Assembly (NCBI GenBank): GCA_013140605.1
Contig: JABFSL010000086.1
Location: 1-40,135, forward strand
Direction of reading: 5' to 3'
DNA from: Anaerolineales bacterium
GTDB lineage: Bacteria; Chloroflexota; Anaerolineae; Anaerolineales; Villigracilaceae
Length of the DNA stretch: 40,135 nucleotides
Within the stretch, counting starts at the first letter, position 1. Every line of letters starts with the position of its first letter. Below, piece by piece: positions 4,218-25,706 of this stretch. A program made the position numbers and the translations under genes. The notes beneath the pieces were generated by a model that made no database searches, was not told where the DNA came from, and saw only the letters and a list, made by a program, of their open reading frames with translations.

Positions 4218-4223
4218 ATTATA
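4218..4223 (-). promoter_or_regulatory. Candidate -10 box for gmd, overlapping the upstream stop codon
   Basis: A perfect TATAAT on the minus strand reads through the TAA stop of the upstream membrane protein, 32 nt before the gmd ATG, and an AAGGAG ribosome binding site follows. No good -35 is visible. It suggests that gmd can be transcribed separately from the upstream gene. Confidence 0.4.
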
Positions 4224-5868
4224 CACTACGTTTTCTGTCGCGCCATAATCCCCAAAAAAAGATCACAGCCCAAAATGCGGCGATACATATCACCATTAAT
4301 GCGAACGGCAATTGCGGCCCAAAATGAATATATCGATTCGCGTACCATTGTCCAAAAAAAATCAGGAAGACGAGTTCCATCGCAAACACGCGCTGGAACC
4401 AGGCATTCTTCGATTCCCGCCACCAGACCCAAACATTCCCAGCCAAAATGGCCTGCCACAAAAACAAGATCGTGCGGTAACGCGGATTGTCCCATGAATC
4501 GCCGCCGCCGCGCAAAGCCGTGATGATGATCCACATCCACACGATAAAACTTAACCAGAGGAAAAGCCTGCGCTTCGACTCTACGCTCTGGCCTGCCGCC
4601 GCTCCAACAGACAGGATCAGCGCCGGCAGCATCGTGTACCAACCCACAGCGCGCAAGATCGCAATAATCCGCCAGATCAATTTCGTCGGCTCGAAAAATG
4701 CAGCGGGCAATACAGGCTGAAAAATCCCATAGACTGTGACGAAGGGCAAACGCATCCACTCGGGCATTTCATCGAAAAGTTTTTGCACCCAGCCCGAATC
4801 TCGTTCCAGTTGATACACATCCCATTTGACCGCTTCGCGCATGAAATTATTGATGATGCCGATCGGCGACCCGCCGCCCAATTCTCCGTTACGATCCAAA
4901 GCGGATGAAAGCAAAAATAAGCCGGCAATGAATACAACGACAACAGCTATAGCCAGCCACCACGAAACGCGACCATGTCCGCTTGAAATATAAAACCATC
5001 CCACCAATATGATGATTGTAGCCAATGCGACAATTGGCGAAAGAAGCAACATCCCGCCAATTCCAAGCGCCAGCCACACTCTGGAGTACAAAGTCTCCTG
5101 ACTTTGTATGGGAGTACGATTTACAAAATTCACAAATCCCCATAACGCAAATGCGCTGAACGCCCAAAAATACGGCTCACGCATGGCGGAACCGCCCAGC
5201 AAAAGGCTTTCGGGATAAAGCGCATAAATCCAGCCAGAAGCCAATGCGACCTTCGCTCCCCATTGTTGATTCGTCGCCTTCCATAAAAATGGCAAAGCCA
5301 GTGCTGCCATAAACGCGGACAGCAGCACCAGCATCAGCGGACGATGCACATCGGGCGATAGATAGCGATACACCAATGCGCTGAATGCCAGCAGACCGCC
5401 ATATTGATCATAAGCATAAGTTTTGTTGAACGCATCATAGATGGGCAAATCTGAACTCGCCAAGTCCCAAGCCTGGGCGTCACGGCGATGCGCATCGGTG
5501 TAGGCAAAGCCCGCGCTTTGATCTTCATCGTCCACATAACCGTAGACTGGTAACGCAAGATACGTGACAACTCCGCCCACGAAGCGCAAAGTGAAAGCGA
5601 GGATGACCATCCATGCTAGTGGCTTTTGGTGGTCGAGTAGCCCCGAGCGTTTTTCGAGGGGCGTATCGCGAAGTCCCCGTAGGGGGAGACCACCACCATT
5701 TGCCCATTTTGTGGAAAGTGTGAGAAGTGAGAAGGAAAGAAGAAAGAGGAAAGAGAATCCCAGCCAGCCGATCAGCCAATTACCCAGTTGCAGTGACGAT
5801 AAAACTGCCCCAAGCCCGAGGGAAAGAGGCAGAATCCAGAGGAAATCTCGTTGGGAAAAAATCTTCAT
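4219..5868 (-). CDS. Multi-spanning membrane protein, probable GT-C glycosyltransferase
   Basis: 549 residues with about ten to twelve hydrophobic helices. A loop after the second helix holds an acidic cluster (VDDEDQSAGFAY, about residues 113-124) where GT-C enzymes place their catalytic acids, so a polyprenyl-linked glycosyltransferase or a polymerase/ligase-type membrane protein is likely; no specific family is certain. Residues around 58-80 (LPLRGLRDTPLEKRSGLLDH) are encoded by a hairpin repeat element inserted in frame (see 5628-5697). The region from the 5' untranslated stretch to about codon 10 is duplicated at 6586-6650 beyond the inserted toxin-antitoxin genes, so the gene probably once lay next to sequence now found upstream of 6650. 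The stop is part of a TATAAT for gmd. Confidence 0.65.
   Translation of the reverse strand: MKIFSQRDFLWILPLSLGLGAVLSSLQLGNWLIGWLGFSFLFLLSFSLLTLSTKWANGGGLPLRGLRDTPLEKRSGLLDHQKPLAWMVILAFTLRFVGGVVTYLALPVYGYVDDEDQSAGFAYTDAHRRDAQAWDLASSDLPIYDAFNKTYAYDQYGGLLAFSALVYRYLSPDVHRPLMLVLLSAFMAALALPFLWKATNQQWGAKVALASGWIYALYPESLLLGGSAMREPYFWAFSAFALWGFVNFVNRTPIQSQETLYSRVWLALGIGGMLLLSPIVALATIIILVGWFYISSGHGRVSWWLAIAVVVVFIAGLFLLSSALDRNGELGGGSPIGIINNFMREAVKWDVYQLERDSGWVQKLFDEMPEWMRLPFVTVYGIFQPVLPAAFFEPTKLIWRIIAILRAVGWYTMLPALILSVGAAAGQSVESKRRLFLWLSFIVWMWIIITALRGGGDSWDNPRYRTILFLWQAILAGNVWVWWRESKNAWFQRVFAMELVFLIFFGQWYANRYIHFGPQLPFALMVICIAAFWAVIFFWGLWRDRKRSV
5628..5697 (+). repeat. Hairpin repeat element (GGTGGTCGAG family), copy A, inside a coding region
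   Basis: Begins GGTGGTCGAGTAGCCCC and contains GGGGCGTATCG, then a TCCCCGTAGGGGGA palindrome, and ends GAGACCACCACC. The outer ends (GGTGGT / ACCACC) are complementary. A second copy in opposite orientation lies at 31757-31802 between two genes. It resembles the short dispersed REP-type repeats of many bacterial genomes. Here it stays in frame and adds roughly 23 codons to the membrane glycosyltransferase. Confidence 0.75.
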
Positions 5869-5899
5869 ATCCCACTTTTACCACGAAGTGATGAAGAGT
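5836..5899 (+). repeat. Direct repeat copy 1 (5' end of the membrane glycosyltransferase gene), flanking the toxin-antitoxin pair
   Basis: 64 bp that reappear at 6586-6650 with one substitution and one inserted C. This copy holds the real start codon (5866-5868), the upstream region and about the first ten codons of the 4219-5868 gene. The two copies enclose exactly the DUF433/DUF5615 module. Near identity suggests a recent event. Confidence 0.9.
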
Positions 5900-5922: not shown

Positions 5923-6300
5923 CTACAACTGCCTGACCCTAATTTTTACCGTATCGCCTGTTCGTTCTGCGACAAGAATAAATGGCGGCGTGACATCAGG
6001 AGCGCTTTCTCGAACAGCTTGTAAAGTTTTCTTTGTAAATTCCGTGCGGATGTGACCCGGGCGTATGTAAATGATCCCAATAAATTTTGCGCCCATTAGT
6101 GCAAGACCGCCAAAATCGCTATCATGGGTTAAAACAACCCTACCCGTCTGCGTGGCTTGTTGCAAAACATTGGTATCGGGAAGCCCCAAACTACCCTGTT
6201 CAGCAATGGATTCAACATCCAACCCTGTCTCGCGCAAAAAAGAAATCACATCGGGATGAACATTCTCATCCGCGAGTAATGGAAAATCAAGAGCCTTCAC
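5923..6300 (-). CDS. DUF5615 PIN-like toxin
   Basis: 125 residues, the usual size of DUF5615 proteins. The family pattern is present: LLADENV with Asp11/Glu12 near the N-terminus and LTHDSDFGG with Asp60 and Asp62. These acidic residues are those expected of a PIN-like (Mut7-C related) nuclease fold. DUF5615 proteins are routinely paired with DUF433 antitoxins, and here the antitoxin gene lies directly upstream with a 4-nt overlap (6297-6300). RNase activity is therefore likely but inferred. The pair sits alone inside a polysaccharide operon, between two copies of a 64-bp repeat, so it is a recently inserted cassette. Confidence 0.82.
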   Translation of the reverse strand: MKALDFPLLADENVHPDVISFLRETGLDVESIAEQGSLGLPDTNVLQQATQTGRVVLTHDSDFGGLALMGAKFIGIIYIRPGHIRTEFTKKTLQAVRESAPDVTPPFILVAERTGDTVKIRVRQL

Positions 6301-6527
6301 GCCCCAACCTTTACATCCAACAGAACTTCATTCTTTACAGATTGCGCGGCATATTTCAACGATTCTTCCACCGCTTCAGCGGTCAACTGCGGATACGCTT
6401 TAAGAACCTCATCCTTGTTTGCTCCACTGGCAAACAATTCAAGAATAAACTCAATGCTAAGGCGTGTGCCTGCAATATGCGGTTTGCCGCTTAAGATTTC
6501 GGGGTTATAAGCAATATGGTTAAACAT
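6297..6527 (-). CDS. DUF433 family antitoxin
   Basis: 76 residues. The family signature is seen at the N-terminus: NPEILSGKPHIAGTRLSIEFIL, with the G-P-x-I-x-G-T-R core at about 14-21. The rest forms a small helical domain (ELFASGANKDEVLKAYPQL), as in winged-helix DUF433 proteins. It probably binds and neutralises the DUF5615 nuclease and may repress its own promoter. The start at 6527 has TAGGAGC 6 nt upstream and a TATAAT at 6553-6558. The stop overlaps the toxin start by 4 nt, the standard order antitoxin then toxin. Confidence 0.82.
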   Translation of the reverse strand: MFNHIAYNPEILSGKPHIAGTRLSIEFILELFASGANKDEVLKAYPQLTAEAVEESLKYAAQSVKNEVLLDVKVGA

Positions 6528-6585: not shown

Positions 6586-6650
6586 CCAGAGGAAATCTCG
6601 TTGGGAAAAAATCTTCATATCCCCACTTTTACCACAAAGTGATGAAGAGT
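6586..6650 (+). repeat. Direct repeat copy 2: duplicated 5' fragment of the membrane glycosyltransferase gene
   Basis: 65 bp matching 5836-5899. It contains the duplicated start codon (6616-6618, minus strand) and about ten codons before homology stops abruptly. It marks the upstream edge of the toxin-antitoxin insertion. The rest of the gap 6651-6787 shows only a TATAAT on the plus strand at 6707-6712, without a good -35, as a possible promoter of the ATPase gene. Confidence 0.88.
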
Positions 6651-21147: not shown

Positions 21148-22149
21148 ATGAAATTCGACGCCGCTTTTCCACCCATTCAATTGAAGGATGTCCCTGCGAT
21201 TGCGAAAGCCGCGCAGGAAATTGGATTCGACGCGTTGTGGACTCAGGAAACGCAGCACGATCCTTTTCTGCCCTGTGCGCTGGTCGCTGAACATTCAGAG
21301 ACTCTGCGCTTTGGCACAGCCATCGCCGTGTCGTTTGCGCGTTCACCTGCCAACCTCGCCTATACCGCCTGGGACTTGTCCGCGCAGTCTGGCGGGCGAT
21401 TCATTTTGGGATTAGGTACGCAGGTCAAGGCGCATATCGAGCGGCGCTTTGGCATGGCATGGCCCGAGTCAGTGACGGGAAAATTGCGCGAGCAAATTCA
21501 AGTCATCCGCGCCTTTTGGGATTGCTGGCAGAATGGTACAAAATTAAATTTCCGCGGCGAATATTACAAGGCGACTCTGATGTCGCCGTTCTTTAATCCG
21601 GGCGCAATCGAACATCCAAATATTCCGATCTATATTGCTGGTGTCAATTCGGGACTCGCAAAATTGGCCGGTGAAATGTGCGAGGGATTCCACGCCCACC
21701 CGTTCAACAGTCCGCGTTATATGAATGAAGTTCTTTTACCCGCCATTGAAGACGGTCTGCAAAAGAGTGGAAGAACTCGAAAAAATATTACAGTATCAAT
21801 GACTCCGTTCATTGCGACCTCGCCCGAAGAGGAAGGTTTCGCGCGGATGCAGATCGCATTCTACGCATCCACGCCATCCTATCAAGCCGTGATGGAAATG
21901 CATGGCTGGGGCGAAACCGCCCAGCAACTTTCAGGCTTTGCTGCCAAAGGCGAATGGGCCGAAATGCCAATGCTCATCACCGATGAAATGCTAAATGAGT
22001 TTTGTCTGGTCACCACGCAGGAAAAACTGGCCGAGGATCTAAAGAAACGCTTTGAAGGAATCGCGGATCGGATTACTTTGTATACTCCATTCGTTCCAAA
22101 AGAAAAGGATGATTGGTGGAAAGAACTGGCAAGAGCGTTTAATTATTAG
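21148..22149 (+). CDS. LLM-class F420-dependent oxidoreductase
   Basis: 333 residues, TIM-barrel luciferase-like family. Seen: KFDAAFPPIQLKDVPAIAKA, GFDALWTQETQHDPFLP, TAIAVSFARSPANLAYTAWDL and GGRFILGLGTQVKAH, the pattern of the TIGR03617-type F420-related subgroup. Such enzymes use reduced F420 (less often FMN) to reduce or oxidise small molecules; the substrate is unknown. AAAGGA precedes the start. It marks the last conserved gene before the insertion region that ends at the MazG-like gene. Confidence 0.88.
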   Translation: MKFDAAFPPIQLKDVPAIAKAAQEIGFDALWTQETQHDPFLPCALVAEHSETLRFGTAIAVSFARSPANLAYTAWDLSAQSGGRFILGLGTQVKAHIERRFGMAWPESVTGKLREQIQVIRAFWDCWQNGTKLNFRGEYYKATLMSPFFNPGAIEHPNIPIYIAGVNSGLAKLAGEMCEGFHAHPFNSPRYMNEVLLPAIEDGLQKSGRTRKNITVSMTPFIATSPEEEGFARMQIAFYASTPSYQAVMEMHGWGETAQQLSGFAAKGEWAEMPMLITDEMLNEFCLVTTQEKLAEDLKKRFEGIADRITLYTPFVPKEKDDWWKELARAFNY

Positions 22150-22172
22150 CATGCAGACAAAGGTATTTTATT

Positions 22173-22862
22173 GTGGAATCAAAAAAAGAAATCTTAGCTA
22201 AGATCGACAAGACAAACGAACAAATTTCAAACTCCCCAATTATCAAAGGATTAATTGATGGGGGACTTTCACTGATTCCGTTTCTTGGCTCAGCAATTTC
22301 GTCTTCACTAGACACTCGCGCCTTTCAGTTATTTGAAGAAAATTCCCGAAAATTTGCAGAGGAAATCCAACAGATAATTGGTGGTTTAGATGAAAACAAA
22401 ATAGATAAAGAATTCCTTGAATCACCAGAATTCACTTCAATACTAATAGCAACTCTTAGTCGGAATGCCCACACTTATCAACAAGAAAAAATTAAAGTTT
22501 TTGCGAAAATTTTCGTTTCATTTTTCACACTCCCAGAATCAAAAGCTTCATACAAAGAAGGTTTTATTCAAATAATTGAAGAACTAGATATAGATCATAT
22601 TCGTATTCTCGGTTTTATTTTTGAACGAGCGAACAACCCTATCGAAAATGACGAGAGATTAGTAGACAGAGTGCTTGCTGATGACATTAGCTCAAATCTA
22701 CAAATTCCTTTGGGTAGAACATTAGCCTATTGTCAACAATTACTAAAATTTGGTTTAGTTCGTGACTGGGGAGTTGGCAAGTTTGGGCAATACAAACCCG
22801 ATAAATTTGCTATTACAGATTATGGTAGTGAATTAGCTCAACTACTAATTTCCAATAAATAA
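22173..22862 (+). CDS. AT-rich protein of unknown function with a C-terminal winged-helix-like region
   Basis: 229 residues from a GTG, with AAAGG about 10 nt upstream. I do not recognise a family. Residues 22-43 form a glycine-rich hydrophobic hairpin (GGLSLIPFLGSAISSSLDTR) that could insert into a membrane or form an amphipathic pair. The middle (50-145) is charged and helical. The C-terminal region (PLGRTLAYCQQLLKFGLVRDWG to FAITDYGSELAQLL) looks like a winged helix. Base composition is clearly more AT-rich than its neighbours, like the ATPase at 6788-8617, and a truncated copy of the MazG gene follows 14 nt later. It is probably an acquired accessory (possibly defence) gene; that function is inference. 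Confidence 0.7.
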   Translation: MESKKEILAKIDKTNEQISNSPIIKGLIDGGLSLIPFLGSAISSSLDTRAFQLFEENSRKFAEEIQQIIGGLDENKIDKEFLESPEFTSILIATLSRNAHTYQQEKIKVFAKIFVSFFTLPESKASYKEGFIQIIEELDIDHIRILGFIFERANNPIENDERLVDRVLADDISSNLQIPLGRTLAYCQQLLKFGLVRDWGVGKFGQYKPDKFAITDYGSELAQLLISNK

Positions 22863-22876
22863 ATTAAGGATAACTT

Positions 22877-22999
22877 ATGAATTTCACCGACTACCAAACC
22901 AAATCCCGCGCCACCGCAAAATATCCCGCCATCGGGCATGGGGTCATCTACCCCACCCTGGGACTTGTCAGCGAGGCGAGTGAACTCAAAACAGGTTAA
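22877..22999 (+). pseudogene. Truncated 5' copy of the MazG-like gene (remnant 1)
   Basis: About 109 bp (22877-22985) match the start of the intact gene at 24918. The first 31 codons differ at eight positions, all synonymous third bases; homology fades after SEASE and a stop follows at 22997-22999. Synonymous-only differences mean this copy diverged as a working gene before it was cut, so it probably came from another strain rather than from a local duplication. Confidence 0.88.
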
Positions 23000-23002
23000 A
23001 TC

Positions 23003-23060
23003 AAAAAACAAGGAGTTGAACTCCTTGTTTTTTGACAAAAACAAGGAGTTGATGTATAGT
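23003..23060 (+). promoter_or_regulatory. Promoter and triple half-site operator of the DUF4143 ATPase gene
   Basis: A 31-bp perfect palindrome (AAAAAACAAGGAGTT, central G, complement; 23003-23033) abuts TTGACA (23032-23037). A third half-site, AAAACAAGGAGTTGATG, is the whole 17-nt spacer, and TATAGT (23055-23060) is the -10. The start codon lies 6 nt after the -10, so the mRNA should be leaderless. A repressor on these sites would block the polymerase. The palindrome could instead act as a hairpin insulating the cassette from upstream transcription. Confidence 0.75.
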
Positions 23061-23066
23061 GACCTC

Positions 23067-24197
23067 ATGTTCAAACGATCCTACGAGCCTCTTTCAGAAT
23101 ATCTTCAAGCTGGAAAAGCCCTGCTTATATATGGTCCGCGCCGGGTGGGCAAAACCACCCTGCTCCAAAATTTCCTAAAAAGCACACCCTTCAAATACAA
23201 ACTGGATTCAGGGGATAATATTCGTACACAACAAATATTGGGATCACAGGATTTTTCTCAAATCCTCCCTTATATTGAGGGATACGAACTGCTTGCCATT
23301 GACGAGGCGCAAAACATTCCCAACATCGGAATGGCCGTAAAAATCATTGTTGACCAAAGACCCGATATTCGCGTTATCCTGACTGGCTCATCCTCCTTTG
23401 AGCTGGCCGGGCAGGTGGGAGAGCCGCTGACAGGCAGAAAACAAACTCTCACCCTCTATTCTTTATCACAGTCAGAGTTGTTATCCTCCTATAATAAATT
23501 TGAATTAAAGGAGAAGCTGGAAGATTTCCTGGTTTATGGCTCATACCCGGAAGTTATTCAAGCATCCACGTATAAACAAAAAGTGGAAGTTATCACTGAA
23601 ATATCAAATTCCTATCTGGTCAAAGATATCCTTGCCTTTGACCGCGTAAAAAACTCAAAAACACTACTGGACCTGCTAAAACTGCTGGCTTTTCAAGTTG
23701 GTTCTGAAGTGTCCCTTTCCGAAATCGGCACAAAAATTGGTGTGGACTATAAAACCGTTCAGAGATATTTGGATCTGCTTGAAAAAGCTTTTGTGATTGT
23801 CCGCCTTGGCGGATTCAGCCGAAACTTGCGGAATGAAGTAACCAACAAGGCGAAATATTATTTTTTGGACAATGGCATTCGCAACTCATTGATAGCCCAG
23901 TTCAATGGAATTTCACAACGAAATGATATCGGCCAGCTTTGGGAAAACTTTATTTTTATTGAACGATTAAAGCACAGGGCTTATCAAGCCATTTATGCAA
24001 ACATGTATTTCTGGCGGACATACAATCAGCAGGAAATCGATCTTGTGGAAGATCGCGACGGAAAGTTACATGGCTACGAAATGAAATGGTCAGCGTCAAA
24101 GACACAAAACGCCCCCCAACAATGGGCCGAAGCATATTCAAACTCAAGCTATGAAATTATCACGCCAGATACATATCAAAAATTTATAATGTCATAG
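23067..24197 (+). CDS. ATPase of the AAA_14/DUF4143 family
   Basis: 376 residues from ATG 23067; the frame is open to 22938 but that part overlaps the promoter and the MazG remnant. Walker A GPRRVGKT (23-30), Walker B LLAIDEAQ (about 80-87), sensor ILTGSSSFEL. A winged-helix region with a DYKTVQRYLDLLEKAF helix follows, then the DUF4143 domain with LWENFIFIERL and EIDLVEDRDG...YEMKWS, a PD-(D/E)xK-like arrangement (Asp, then ExK). The family is widespread, often mobile, and of unknown role. It brings its own promoter and lies between two remnants of the MazG gene. Confidence 0.88.
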   Translation: MFKRSYEPLSEYLQAGKALLIYGPRRVGKTTLLQNFLKSTPFKYKLDSGDNIRTQQILGSQDFSQILPYIEGYELLAIDEAQNIPNIGMAVKIIVDQRPDIRVILTGSSSFELAGQVGEPLTGRKQTLTLYSLSQSELLSSYNKFELKEKLEDFLVYGSYPEVIQASTYKQKVEVITEISNSYLVKDILAFDRVKNSKTLLDLLKLLAFQVGSEVSLSEIGTKIGVDYKTVQRYLDLLEKAFVIVRLGGFSRNLRNEVTNKAKYYFLDNGIRNSLIAQFNGISQRNDIGQLWENFIFIERLKHRAYQAIYANMYFWRTYNQQEIDLVEDRDGKLHGYEMKWSASKTQNAPQQWAEAYSNSSYEIITPDTYQKFIMS

Positions 24198-24212
24198 ACC
24201 TACGGAGCTTCA

Positions 24213-24268
24213 ATAAACTTCACCAACTACTAAACCATAGATCAAATTCCGCGCCAATAGCTAAAATT
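24213..24268 (+). pseudogene. Decayed 5' copy of the MazG-like gene (remnant 2)
   Basis: ATAAACTTCACCAACTACTA then AACC, AAATTCCGCGCCA and AAAAT align to the first 45 bases of the MazG-like gene with substitutions, two small insertions and in-frame stops. It shares AACTAC and CCGCGCC with remnant 1 more than with the intact gene. It lies 16 nt after the ATPase stop and just before the methyltransferase gene. Confidence 0.7.
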
Positions 24269-24284
24269 CACATAAGGAGAAGCG

Positions 24285-24908
24285 ATGAACATTTTCAACT
24301 GGATTGCCGCAAGCATTGTCATCGTCACATTGATCTATGTAAGTTTTGTCCTCACTCTGGCTGATTGGTTCAAAGCCCTCCGCAGAGGAGAAGCTGTCAC
24401 CTTATTGCCCGAACGTGGGGGAAGGAAATGGCCGCTATGGACTCAGGTTGTCATAATCATCATCGGTATGGGGCTTTGCATTCCGCTTTTCTACTTCGGC
24501 TGGATCCCATTGTTTCATGTCCCGTCCAACATCACATTCACTCTTGGCTTGATCGGTCTGCTTTTGTATCTATTTGGTCTGATCTTTATGTTATGGGCAC
24601 GGCGCACACTTGGTAAATACTGGGGATTAAGCACAAGCACAAACGTTAAATTACTCGATGACCATCAGCTCATTCAAAGCGGACCCTTCGCCTTTATCCG
24701 CCACCCGATGTACTTTGGCGCATGGGTTCTCTTTTTAGGGTTGACCTTGCTTTATCCGGTTTGGGCCATATTTATTCTGTTTCTCTCCGCCCTGATCGCT
24801 TTTAGCGGGCGCGCCCGTCGCGAGGAAGCTGCACTTGCAGAACGATTTGGGAATAGTTGGGTAGAATACAGGAAGCGAACCAAACTTATCATTCCATTTA
24901 TTTACTGA
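24285..24908 (+). CDS. Isoprenylcysteine carboxyl methyltransferase-like membrane protein
   Basis: 207 residues with four to five hydrophobic segments (about 5-25, 47-68, 80-105, 147-175). The family signature GPFAFIRHPMYFGAW (about 128-142) binds S-adenosylmethionine in ICMT/PEMT-type enzymes, and the C-terminal RREEAALAERFGNSWVEYRKRT is typical of bacterial members. The bacterial substrate is unknown; lipid or small-molecule methylation is likely. AAGGAG lies 5 nt before the start. It sits between remnant 2 and the intact MazG gene, so it too was probably inserted. Confidence 0.85.
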   Translation: MNIFNWIAASIVIVTLIYVSFVLTLADWFKALRRGEAVTLLPERGGRKWPLWTQVVIIIIGMGLCIPLFYFGWIPLFHVPSNITFTLGLIGLLLYLFGLIFMLWARRTLGKYWGLSTSTNVKLLDDHQLIQSGPFAFIRHPMYFGAWVLFLGLTLLYPVWAIFILFLSALIAFSGRARREEAALAERFGNSWVEYRKRTKLIIPFIY

Positions 24909-24917
24909 GGACTCCAA

Positions 24918-25247
24918 ATGAATTTCACCGATTACCAAACCAAATCACGCGCCACCGCAAAATACCCCGCCATTGGGCACGGCGTCATCTACCCCACGCT
25001 TGGACTTGTCAACGAGGCGGGCGAAGTGGCGGGCAAGATCAAGAAAGTCTTCCGCGATAAAAGCGGAGAGATCAGCGCCGAAACACGCGAAGCGCTCCAG
25101 GCAGAATTAGGTGATGTACTCTGGTATCTGGCGCAGGTCGCAACGGAACTTGACCTGTCACTGGATGAGATCGCGGAACATAACATCTCCAAATTATTAG
25201 ACAGGCAGTCACGCGGAAAAATTCAGGGCGATGGCGACAACCGTTAA
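24918..25247 (+). CDS. MazG-like nucleotide pyrophosphohydrolase
   Basis: 109 residues, the length of single-domain MazG-like proteins. The metal motif is visible as NEAGEVAGKIKK (about 32-43) and ELGDVLWYLAQVA (about 64-76), giving the ExxE(12-28)ExxD pattern. These enzymes hydrolyse NTPs or dNTPs to monophosphates and diphosphate, in house-cleaning or stress control. The start codon lies 9 nt after the methyltransferase stop with GAGGACT in front. Its 5' end exists in two further damaged copies upstream, so it is the stable anchor at an insertion hotspot. Confidence 0.88.
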   Translation: MNFTDYQTKSRATAKYPAIGHGVIYPTLGLVNEAGEVAGKIKKVFRDKSGEISAETREALQAELGDVLWYLAQVATELDLSLDEIAEHNISKLLDRQSRGKIQGDGDNR

Positions 25248-25253
25248 AGAGTC

Positions 25254-25706
25254 ATGATGAAATTCCAGTGTGTCAGTTGCGGAGCCGCACTTGACTCCAC
25301 CTCAGGCATGGTCAAATGCCCATATTGCGGGAGCATGAATCAGGTCGCGCCGATCGTGTTGGCTGAATCCCTGCGGATCGAGACCATCAACGATGTCGCA
25401 TCCATCCTGATCCCCAAATGGACCTCCCTGCCGACCAGCATCACCGAAGTGTTTTCTACCGGGTTGGATAACCAAAGTTCGGTCAGCGTGCATATCGTTC
25501 AGGGAGAATCTGACCACATTTCGCAAAACCGCAACGTGGGGAATTTTACGTTTGACGGTATTCCGCCCGCCCCGCGCGCCAAGCCGCGCATCCAATTTAC
25601 ACTTGAAGTTGGAAGCGATGGCCGTTTGATCGTCACAGCTTTGAATCTTGAAACACAAAAAGAACAAACCTTCCCCGCCATGCAATTGGAAATTATTCAA
25701 CGGTAA
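25254..25706 (+). CDS. Zinc ribbon fused to a stand-alone DnaK-type substrate-binding domain
   Basis: 150 residues. N-terminal zinc ribbon with two CxxC pairs (Cys6, Cys9, Cys22, Cys25). From about residue 34 to 146 the sequence aligns with the beta-sandwich substrate-binding domain of Hsp70/DnaK: LRIETINDV matches LGIETMGGV; LPTSITEVFSTGLDNQSS matches the segment around IPTKHSQVFSTAEDNQSA; VHIVQGE, FTFDGIPPAPR, and TQKEQT follow in the same order. The Hsp70 ATPase domain and the helical lid are absent. The hydrophobic pocket valine is kept; the arch residues differ (Ile for Met, Gly for Ala). It probably binds unfolded peptides without ATP. It ends 215 nt before clpC on the same strand, which suggests a chaperone or adaptor role; that is inference. 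Confidence 0.8.
   Translation: MMKFQCVSCGAALDSTSGMVKCPYCGSMNQVAPIVLAESLRIETINDVASILIPKWTSLPTSITEVFSTGLDNQSSVSVHIVQGESDHISQNRNVGNFTFDGIPPAPRAKPRIQFTLEVGSDGRLIVTALNLETQKEQTFPAMQLEIIQR

Follow-up and report, generated by a model that had tools for sequence, protein, structure and literature searches.

Truncated gene ends among small cargo genes at an insertion hotspot beside a mazG-like gene in Villigracilaceae (Chloroflexota)

A conserved mazG-like gene in an Anaerolineales bacterium of the Villigracilaceae (assembly GCA_013140605.1) borders a well-supported insertion hotspot, at which the upstream small genes differ among genomes and truncated copies of its own 5′ end lie between them. We analysed positions 1 to 40,135 of contig JABFSL010000086.1, and this whole 40,135-nt stretch is called the window; it lies on contig C71 of a genome of 132 contigs, coded G000, which was compared with its genus in a set of 57 genomes that includes it. 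The intact gene (hereafter mazG) is preceded by two remnants, R1 and R2, and this three-copy observation, made in a preliminary description of the DNA, was confirmed. The process extends beyond mazG, as the window holds a second scar beside another gene and a pyruvate dehydrogenase E2-like gene (hereafter E2) forms a mirror-image hotspot at its 3′ end. On balance, we favour a reading in which cargo genes are imported by recombination, with a conserved gene end as the anchor, and the older gene end is left behind as a scar.

Copies of the mazG 5′ end and the genes between them

The three copies share one orientation, the + strand. The intact gene (24918..25247; PF03819, 39.4 bits), the anchor of the hotspot, has a DNA match in 54 of the 57 genomes, and the closest named relatives of its protein, among the matches listed, come from Chloroflexota/Anaerolineales metagenome-assembled genomes. 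R1 (22877..22984) corresponds to nt 1–108 of a mazG allele and is 90% identical to the intact copy over those 108 nt, which bears out its earlier identification as a mazG 5′ end. The eight synonymous bases previously counted over the first 31 codons are the only differences there, all at third positions; within codons 32–36, two codons differ at three nucleotides in all, with a changed residue in each, and the reading frame is kept over 36 codons. R1 and the intact copy are nearly equal in similarity to the sister genome G017 (99 and 101 of 108, respectively).

R2 (24213..24267), described earlier as a decayed 5′ end of about 55 bp, resembles mazG beyond chance, with a local alignment score of 40 against a maximum of 33 among 300 dinucleotide shuffles. 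When the background was scanned in 1335 steps of 87 nt, leaving out the mazG, R1 and R2 stretches, a single step (22824), which overlaps R1, reached 40. In the alignment the ATG has become ATA, a Gln codon has become a stop and there is a 7-nt insertion; the match has an E value of 0.007 in a search of mazG against the intervals. The earlier length is less secure: by eye, the last third of R2 resembles the region upstream of the ICMT-like gene in G037, so that the true mazG part may be ~38–46 nt rather than 55.

Comparison across the genus bears out the hotspot that had been claimed. A luciferase-like (LLM) oxidoreductase gene, the left flank in the window (21148..22149, + strand; PF00296, E 1e-60), was found upstream at 43 of the 54 mazG loci, the other 11 having no LLM gene within the DNA retrieved. 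Across these 43 genomes the LLM–mazG interval ranges from 19 to 2982 bp: 12 are effectively empty (≤160 bp), as the earlier proposal of an empty site in sister genomes had anticipated, five measure 161–600 bp and 26 exceed 600 bp, with varied small genes in the occupied sites. Neighbouring control intervals are steadier, AcThE–M42 being ≤160 bp in 25/33 genomes, mazG–ClpC ≤600 bp in 28/32 and CRP–AcThE >600 bp in 2/15. The M42–LLM interval is two-peaked (≤160 bp in 17/37, ~600–800 bp in 19/37 and one of 3352 bp); LLM–mazG is thus the most variable of the intervals compared, yet not the sole variable one. An rpoB tree, quickly built for 48 genomes without G020 and G034, requires at least seven changes between the empty and occupied states of the interval when G052 (288 bp) and G055 (488 bp, no long ORF) are counted as empty; the presence of the MazE-PIN, DUF4143 and ICMT cargo needs three changes each.

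Truncated mazG ends also stand beside other cargo, as had been suggested. Besides R1, a search of mazG against 54 intervals gave two clearly significant copies, a 33-nt scar in G047 (E 1.5e-11) and a 37-nt scar in G049 (E 4e-12), both accompanied by cargo other than that of the window. All four fragments, R1 and R2 included, begin at mazG nt 1 and lie on the same strand as mazG. The G047 genome is a single contig, which argues against assembly error for its scar. A repeat scan of 80 named loci (846 kb) returned the G049 scar again (L096) as the sole mazG scar. Five further mazG matches within intervals (E 0.002–0.007) hit parts of the gene other than its 5′ end, and four LLM matches lie within intervals of G006 and G056, two of them at one place in G006.

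Several further observations were made at these loci. That place in G006 (~−3333 to −3299 relative to mazG) carries a short LLM match on both strands (E 1.8e-7 and 9e-5). In G047 (L062), repeats with no clear gene between them occupy ~−173 to −23 from mazG, between the scar and the intact gene, and upstream of the scar are ORFs with HTH_33/HTH_29 domains, which we take to be IS-like. At L142 a 37-nt repeat directly follows mazG. Raised synonymous conservation was considered as a sign of exchange, with mazG codons 1–12 at 0.67 against 0.50–0.58 in other bins, and was dropped: the first M42 window was also raised (0.61), LLM and ClpC stayed within their ranges, and the last 36 codons of E2 were not raised.

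From LLM to mazG the window carries, all on the + strand, an Abi_alpha-like gene, R1, a DUF4143 ATPase gene, R2 and an ICMT-like methyltransferase gene; Pfam agrees with the names given earlier to the ATPase, the methyltransferase and MazG. The first cargo gene (22173..22862) is AT-rich, with a sub-threshold match to Abi_alpha (PF14337, 20.8 bits against a cut-off of 29) and no match in a PADLOC scan. The DUF4143/AAA_14 ATPase (23067..24197; PF13635, PF13173) matches the PADLOC candidate family PDC-S01 (E 7e-146); its ORF is open from 22938, and 23067 is the likely start, judged by eye. At the left end of its module an inverted repeat (23008..23028, no strand assigned) has the pattern ACAAGGAGTTSAACTCCTTGT and is terminator-like, from which we infer a terminator role. 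The exact pattern occurs at one place each in five of the 57 genomes, every one at the mazG locus. The ICMT/PEMT-like methyltransferase (24285..24908) matches PF04140 and PF04191.

Cargo elsewhere in the genus is similarly diverse. Among 30 representative cargo proteins, 10 were without a Pfam match, and the matches of the others include MazE-PIN, HigB-HTH, TIR, GNAT, Mrr, Fic, glyoxalase, SAP/DUF6434 and an N6/N4 methylase with a BglII-like protein. PADLOC matched none of five among the 10 cargo proteins scanned, so the cargo is only partly defence-like. At the 43 loci with LLM, three cargo ORFs (≥70 aa) lie on the − strand, all in G047; − strand ORFs do appear at mazG loci that lack LLM. Some cargo is closely tied to this site: all four DUF4143 DNA relatives at ≥74% identity, the query aside, are at mazG, with more distant relatives (71% and 68%) and short partial matches elsewhere, and the near-full-length relatives of the G049 MazE-PIN query are at mazG in G016 and G054 and at a contig edge in G043.

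Several families also keep their junction with mazG. The ICMT-to-mazG distance is the same in G000, G015 and G037 (3/3), and the junction is kept by a 562-aa family in G008, G021 and G028 (3/3) and by the glyoxalase in G002, G005 and G044 (3/3). In G016 and G049, where the sequences are alike, MazE-PIN overlaps the start of mazG; the far end of MazE-PIN comes in three forms: an apparent leftover of the DUF4143 terminator/promoter in G016, a shorter piece in G054, and mazG nt 37 in G049. The DUF4143 stop lies 9–13 nt before the intact mazG in G019, G033, G035 and G036 and, in the window, 15 nt before R2, a spacing that would suit R2 as the former mazG partner of DUF4143.

Scars at other conserved genes

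The second scar in the window lies near a − strand ORF (4219..5868) that reads as a membrane protein and has no Pfam match. A 65-nt repeat, formed by ~34 nt of sequence upstream of this ORF and ~31–33 nt of its coding sequence, is present at the intact 5′ end (5836..5899, − strand) and, at 97% identity, as a scar (6586..6650, − strand). Between the two copies sits a pair of − strand genes, DUF5615 and DUF433 (5923..6527; PF18480, PF04255), presumably a toxin–antitoxin pair. A strong DNA match to the pair was found in 15 other genomes, and only in G043 (C109, ~0.65 kb away) does it neighbour that ORF; elsewhere it is on another contig or, in G005, 0.55 Mb away, and in G023 the location of the gene is ambiguous. 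The stretch 5500–5899 has a DNA match in 54/57 genomes, many of which hit an internal repeat; 5627–5693, in the 5′ part of the ORF, is a dispersed repeat that matches many places in many genomes.

The scan for repeats of the same kind covered samples of 328 kb and 346 kb from G000 and of 400 kb from G047. In G000, the E2 gene (contig C20; L179, 4197–7225) is followed on its own strand by two 3′-end scars, the first 81% identical to the gene. The cargo before these scars comprises a DUF6036-like gene and an FRG gene (PADLOC PDC-S15). A 126-nt copy of the 3′ end of a cyclase-like gene, at 78% identity, was found on contig C25 (L180, 5415–9798), where it follows a phosphonate-binding protein gene and an HD/GAF/PAS gene. 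On contig C118 (L350, 4250–8420) an array of related genes, which had no Pfam call and which we take to be TIR-like, has truncated 5′ ends of the same family in between and looks like a displacement array. Other direct repeats (L187, L192, L354), which look like tandem paralogues or dispersed repeats, were not counted, and L212 and further repeats were likewise kept out of the scar count.

The survey of the E2 locus drew on 50 sequences in which an E2 end is followed by at least 500 bp; they come from 48 genomes, two of them being second-contig pieces. Once the BLAST pieces of single decayed fragments had been merged by hand, 23 same-strand 3′-end fragments were present downstream in 16 of the 48 genomes; weak matches in G040 and G041 (−80 to −28, E 1e-4) were excluded as chance-like. 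In G038 the contig begins inside an E2-like end. With 240-nt queries, the left ends of 16/23 fragments fall at −126 to −91 from the stop, seven are shorter and none is longer. The fragments come after small + strand cargo: F3 (DUF6036-like) in 6/6 cases, F16 (FRG) in 2/3, F6 in 2/4 and F32 in 2/2.

Several E2 scars share insertions that E2 itself lacks. Motif B, allowing up to three mismatches, has nine sites in the 57 genomes, seven of them at E2-end fragments: two in one locus of G006, and one each in G000, G018, G031, G033 and G034 (the piece retrieved from G034 contains no E2 gene). The remaining two are at G013:C138 and G026:C59. Motif A was at the E2 locus in 4/4 cases within the sampled DNA. 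By eye, the last ~40 nt of most E2 scars still consist of E2 codons, and the part upstream is often broken. Because the shared insertions occur in scars behind different cargo, these scars appear to have a common ancestry and could be carried along or used again.

Origin of the scars

In the process that we favour, small cargo genes taken up from related bacteria would land again and again at the mazG 5′ end. On the incoming DNA the cargo would precede a donor copy of the conserved gene end; this copy would recombine with the resident one as an anchor, so that the anchor gene stays intact and the older gene end remains beyond the cargo, as a short scar; repeats of such arrivals would give stacks. 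Uptake may occur by natural transformation, the anchoring step would be RecA-dependent, and the far end would be joined illegitimately, at least when a scar is first formed. ComEC is present in 54/57 genomes, this one included, which makes DNA uptake possible. The earlier proposal of repeated arrival of cargo with flanking homologous DNA fits the hotspot, the empty sites and an E2 end that appears to have moved with its cargo; simple one-by-one stacking beside mazG fits poorly, as the inner remnant R2 is more decayed than the outer R1. Successive arrivals, each beside mazG, would make R1 the older remnant, but R1 is near pristine and R2 is broken, so import of a block is simpler. The last event here was probably the arrival of a block DUF4143–R2–ICMT–mazG in a genome carrying abi–mazG, with the resident mazG truncated to R1.

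Joint travel of an intact gene end and its cargo is best supported by G000 and G055, in which the F3 cargo (91%) and the E2 end (88.5%) are both above rpoB (82.7%); the best match to a 529-nt G000 E2 query is likewise in G055, narrowly before the sister G017. F6 pairs exceed rpoB in 6/6 comparisons, by 1 to 7 points. At the mazG locus, the PIN genes of G049 and G054 are 90% identical (LLM and mazG of the same pair, 80%), and the glyoxalase of G002 is 88% identical to those of G005 and G044 (LLM, 80%). These comparisons support homologous import of some cargo, which would have come from related genomes.

A number of results weigh against this account. Scars were found at just three of the 54 mazG loci, 28 of the 31 intervals longer than 160 bp with LLM present have none, and the 400-kb sample of G047 gave no clear scar. 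The scars are short (33–126 nt), and E2 breakpoints are clustered as a random join would not predict. F3 pairs exceed rpoB in only 3/10 comparisons with rpoB data and FRG pairs in 0/3. DUF4143, ICMT and GNAT diverge about like core genes, or beyond them, and for these old inheritance with loss is therefore possible. By eye, the intact mazG of G049 resembles that of its sister G026 and is not donor-like. Nor is the junction with mazG always kept: MazE-PIN of G054 lies ~120 nt from mazG, GNAT cargo (eight genomes) ends ~1 to 700 nt from it, and a 271/272-aa pair also differs on its mazG side.

The shared ancestry of E2 scars behind different cargo implies that the recipient's own gene is not in every case the source of a scar, and it lends some weight to a less probable alternative, in which the scar itself is a reusable homology arm. 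The gene-end copy on the far side of a cargo gene would recombine, through RecA, with any intact end; the cargo would need no recombinase of its own and, in the same tentative scheme, new scars need not derive from the recipient. The private insertions common to scars behind different cargo (motif B at 7/9 sites, motif A at 4/4), the two motif B sites within one G006 locus and the preserved final ~40 nt agree with such reuse. It leaves the origin of the first scar unexplained, no circular or free form was seen, two motif B sites lie elsewhere, and a single old scar, passed down within part of the genus, could account for the shared insertions. Elements that integrate site-specifically at attachment sites in gene ends, their integrases lost or acting in trans, are an unlikely source: gene-end restoration and clustered breakpoints (E2, 16/23; mazG, 33 and 37 nt) do resemble integrase sites, and tyrosine recombinase (PF00589) matches occur in 56/57 genomes, but among the matches listed none is at a mazG or E2 locus, and the two of four G000 matches that were listed are not on C71 or C20. 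Integrases were likewise absent from the eight proteins Pfam-scanned in the LLM–mazG interval, in line with the preliminary description, and from 30 representative mazG cargo proteins, the proteins scanned at the second scar of the window and the scanned proteins of the G000 E2 and L180 loci (the Pfam scan of E2 cargo covered G000). The mazG scars break off at nt 33, 37, by eye ~38, and 108; the R1 break at nt 108 and the species-level differences between scar and intact copies also speak against such elements.

That mazG was duplicated locally in tandem and then truncated, with the cargo arriving separately, seems very unlikely to us; it would suit the closeness and common orientation of the copies, but R1 and the intact gene are ~10% apart, as between species, with synonymous differences only over 31 codons, each pair of copies has cargo between, and a like pattern is seen at other genes. 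Most improbable of all is a function for the fragments as small ORFs or leader elements: R1 does keep its frame over 36 codons, but R2 has lost start and frame, several E2 scars are broken, and no fragment was detected at 51 of the 54 mazG loci. Transposition had been doubted from the outset, and the interval agrees with that doubt: no transposase was found among its eight scanned proteins, and terminal inverted repeats, sought with arms of at least 20 nt, gave only 70–80% matches, none bounding cargo. A scan for attC sites found none at 22150–25260 of the window or at L179 5400–7400; with the same settings, one site was called in L351 (15856–15985). At L351 14863–16740 (contig C123 of G000), repeats lie between small genes, a possible chromosomal integron cassette array.

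Known systems and wider meaning

The few-bp microhomology typical of homology-facilitated illegitimate recombination occurs at the illegitimate junction. Integrase islands in gene ends restore the gene, and integron cassette arrays consist of small cargo genes, mostly on one strand, in stacks. The closest published case found is the T6SS orphan-immunity array of Vibrio cholerae, which its authors ascribe, as a proposal, to a process resembling homology-facilitated illegitimate recombination (PMC5361080). There, as here, successive modules are anchored in a conserved gene part and older pieces are displaced from the anchor; in V. cholerae the anchor belongs to the exchanged system, being the upstream region of the effector module (PMC5361080), whereas the anchors here are unrelated conserved genes, which serve at either their 5′ or their 3′ end and have no relationship with the cargo. 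As cited in PMC2884548 and PMC5361080, homology-facilitated illegitimate recombination is described in Acinetobacter, P. stutzeri and S. pneumoniae, and a similar process is proposed for variable segments in E. coli (PMC2884548). The resemblance would lie in one end joined by homology and the other without it. At mazG, the homologous end is represented by the cargo–mazG junctions kept in several families, though not by GNAT cargo or in G054, and at E2 by the raised identity of both F3 cargo and E2 end between G000 and G055. As to the other end, MazE-PIN has three different far ends, but E2 scars share ancestry and their breakpoints cluster. In contrast to those cases, the process here is deduced from scars, with duplications of 33–126 nt and clustered breakpoints.

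Displacement of Rhs/CDI C-termini is comparable in that a constant part anchors and displaced orphan pieces pile up (mentioned in PMC5361080); here there is no polymorphic toxin and the anchor gene is whole. Integrase islands such as SGI1 at trmE and the dusA islands share the position at a gene end, but the cargo scanned here has no integrase and the scars are diverged between species. The small stacked cargo genes, mostly on one strand, recall integron arrays, from which the mazG and E2 loci of this genome differ in having no attC-like site. A literature search of partial coverage found no description of gene-end scars at conserved genes in Chloroflexota.

The wider question is how the same sites, in different species, come to receive small genes that lack mobile-element machinery. 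Gene-end scars offer a readable record of order, polarity and donor divergence that can be counted across genomes. It is conceivable, though we hold it only tentatively, that conserved genes serve as shared landing pads across this Anaerolineales genus and that short gene-end copies are portable homology arms, a cassette system free of recombinases. With the same reserve, ordinary homologous recombination, acting at 5′ and 3′ gene ends alike, might let cargo, some of it defence-like, spread, stack and disappear again. If scars do act as homology arms, this would help to explain insertion hotspots that lack an integrase.

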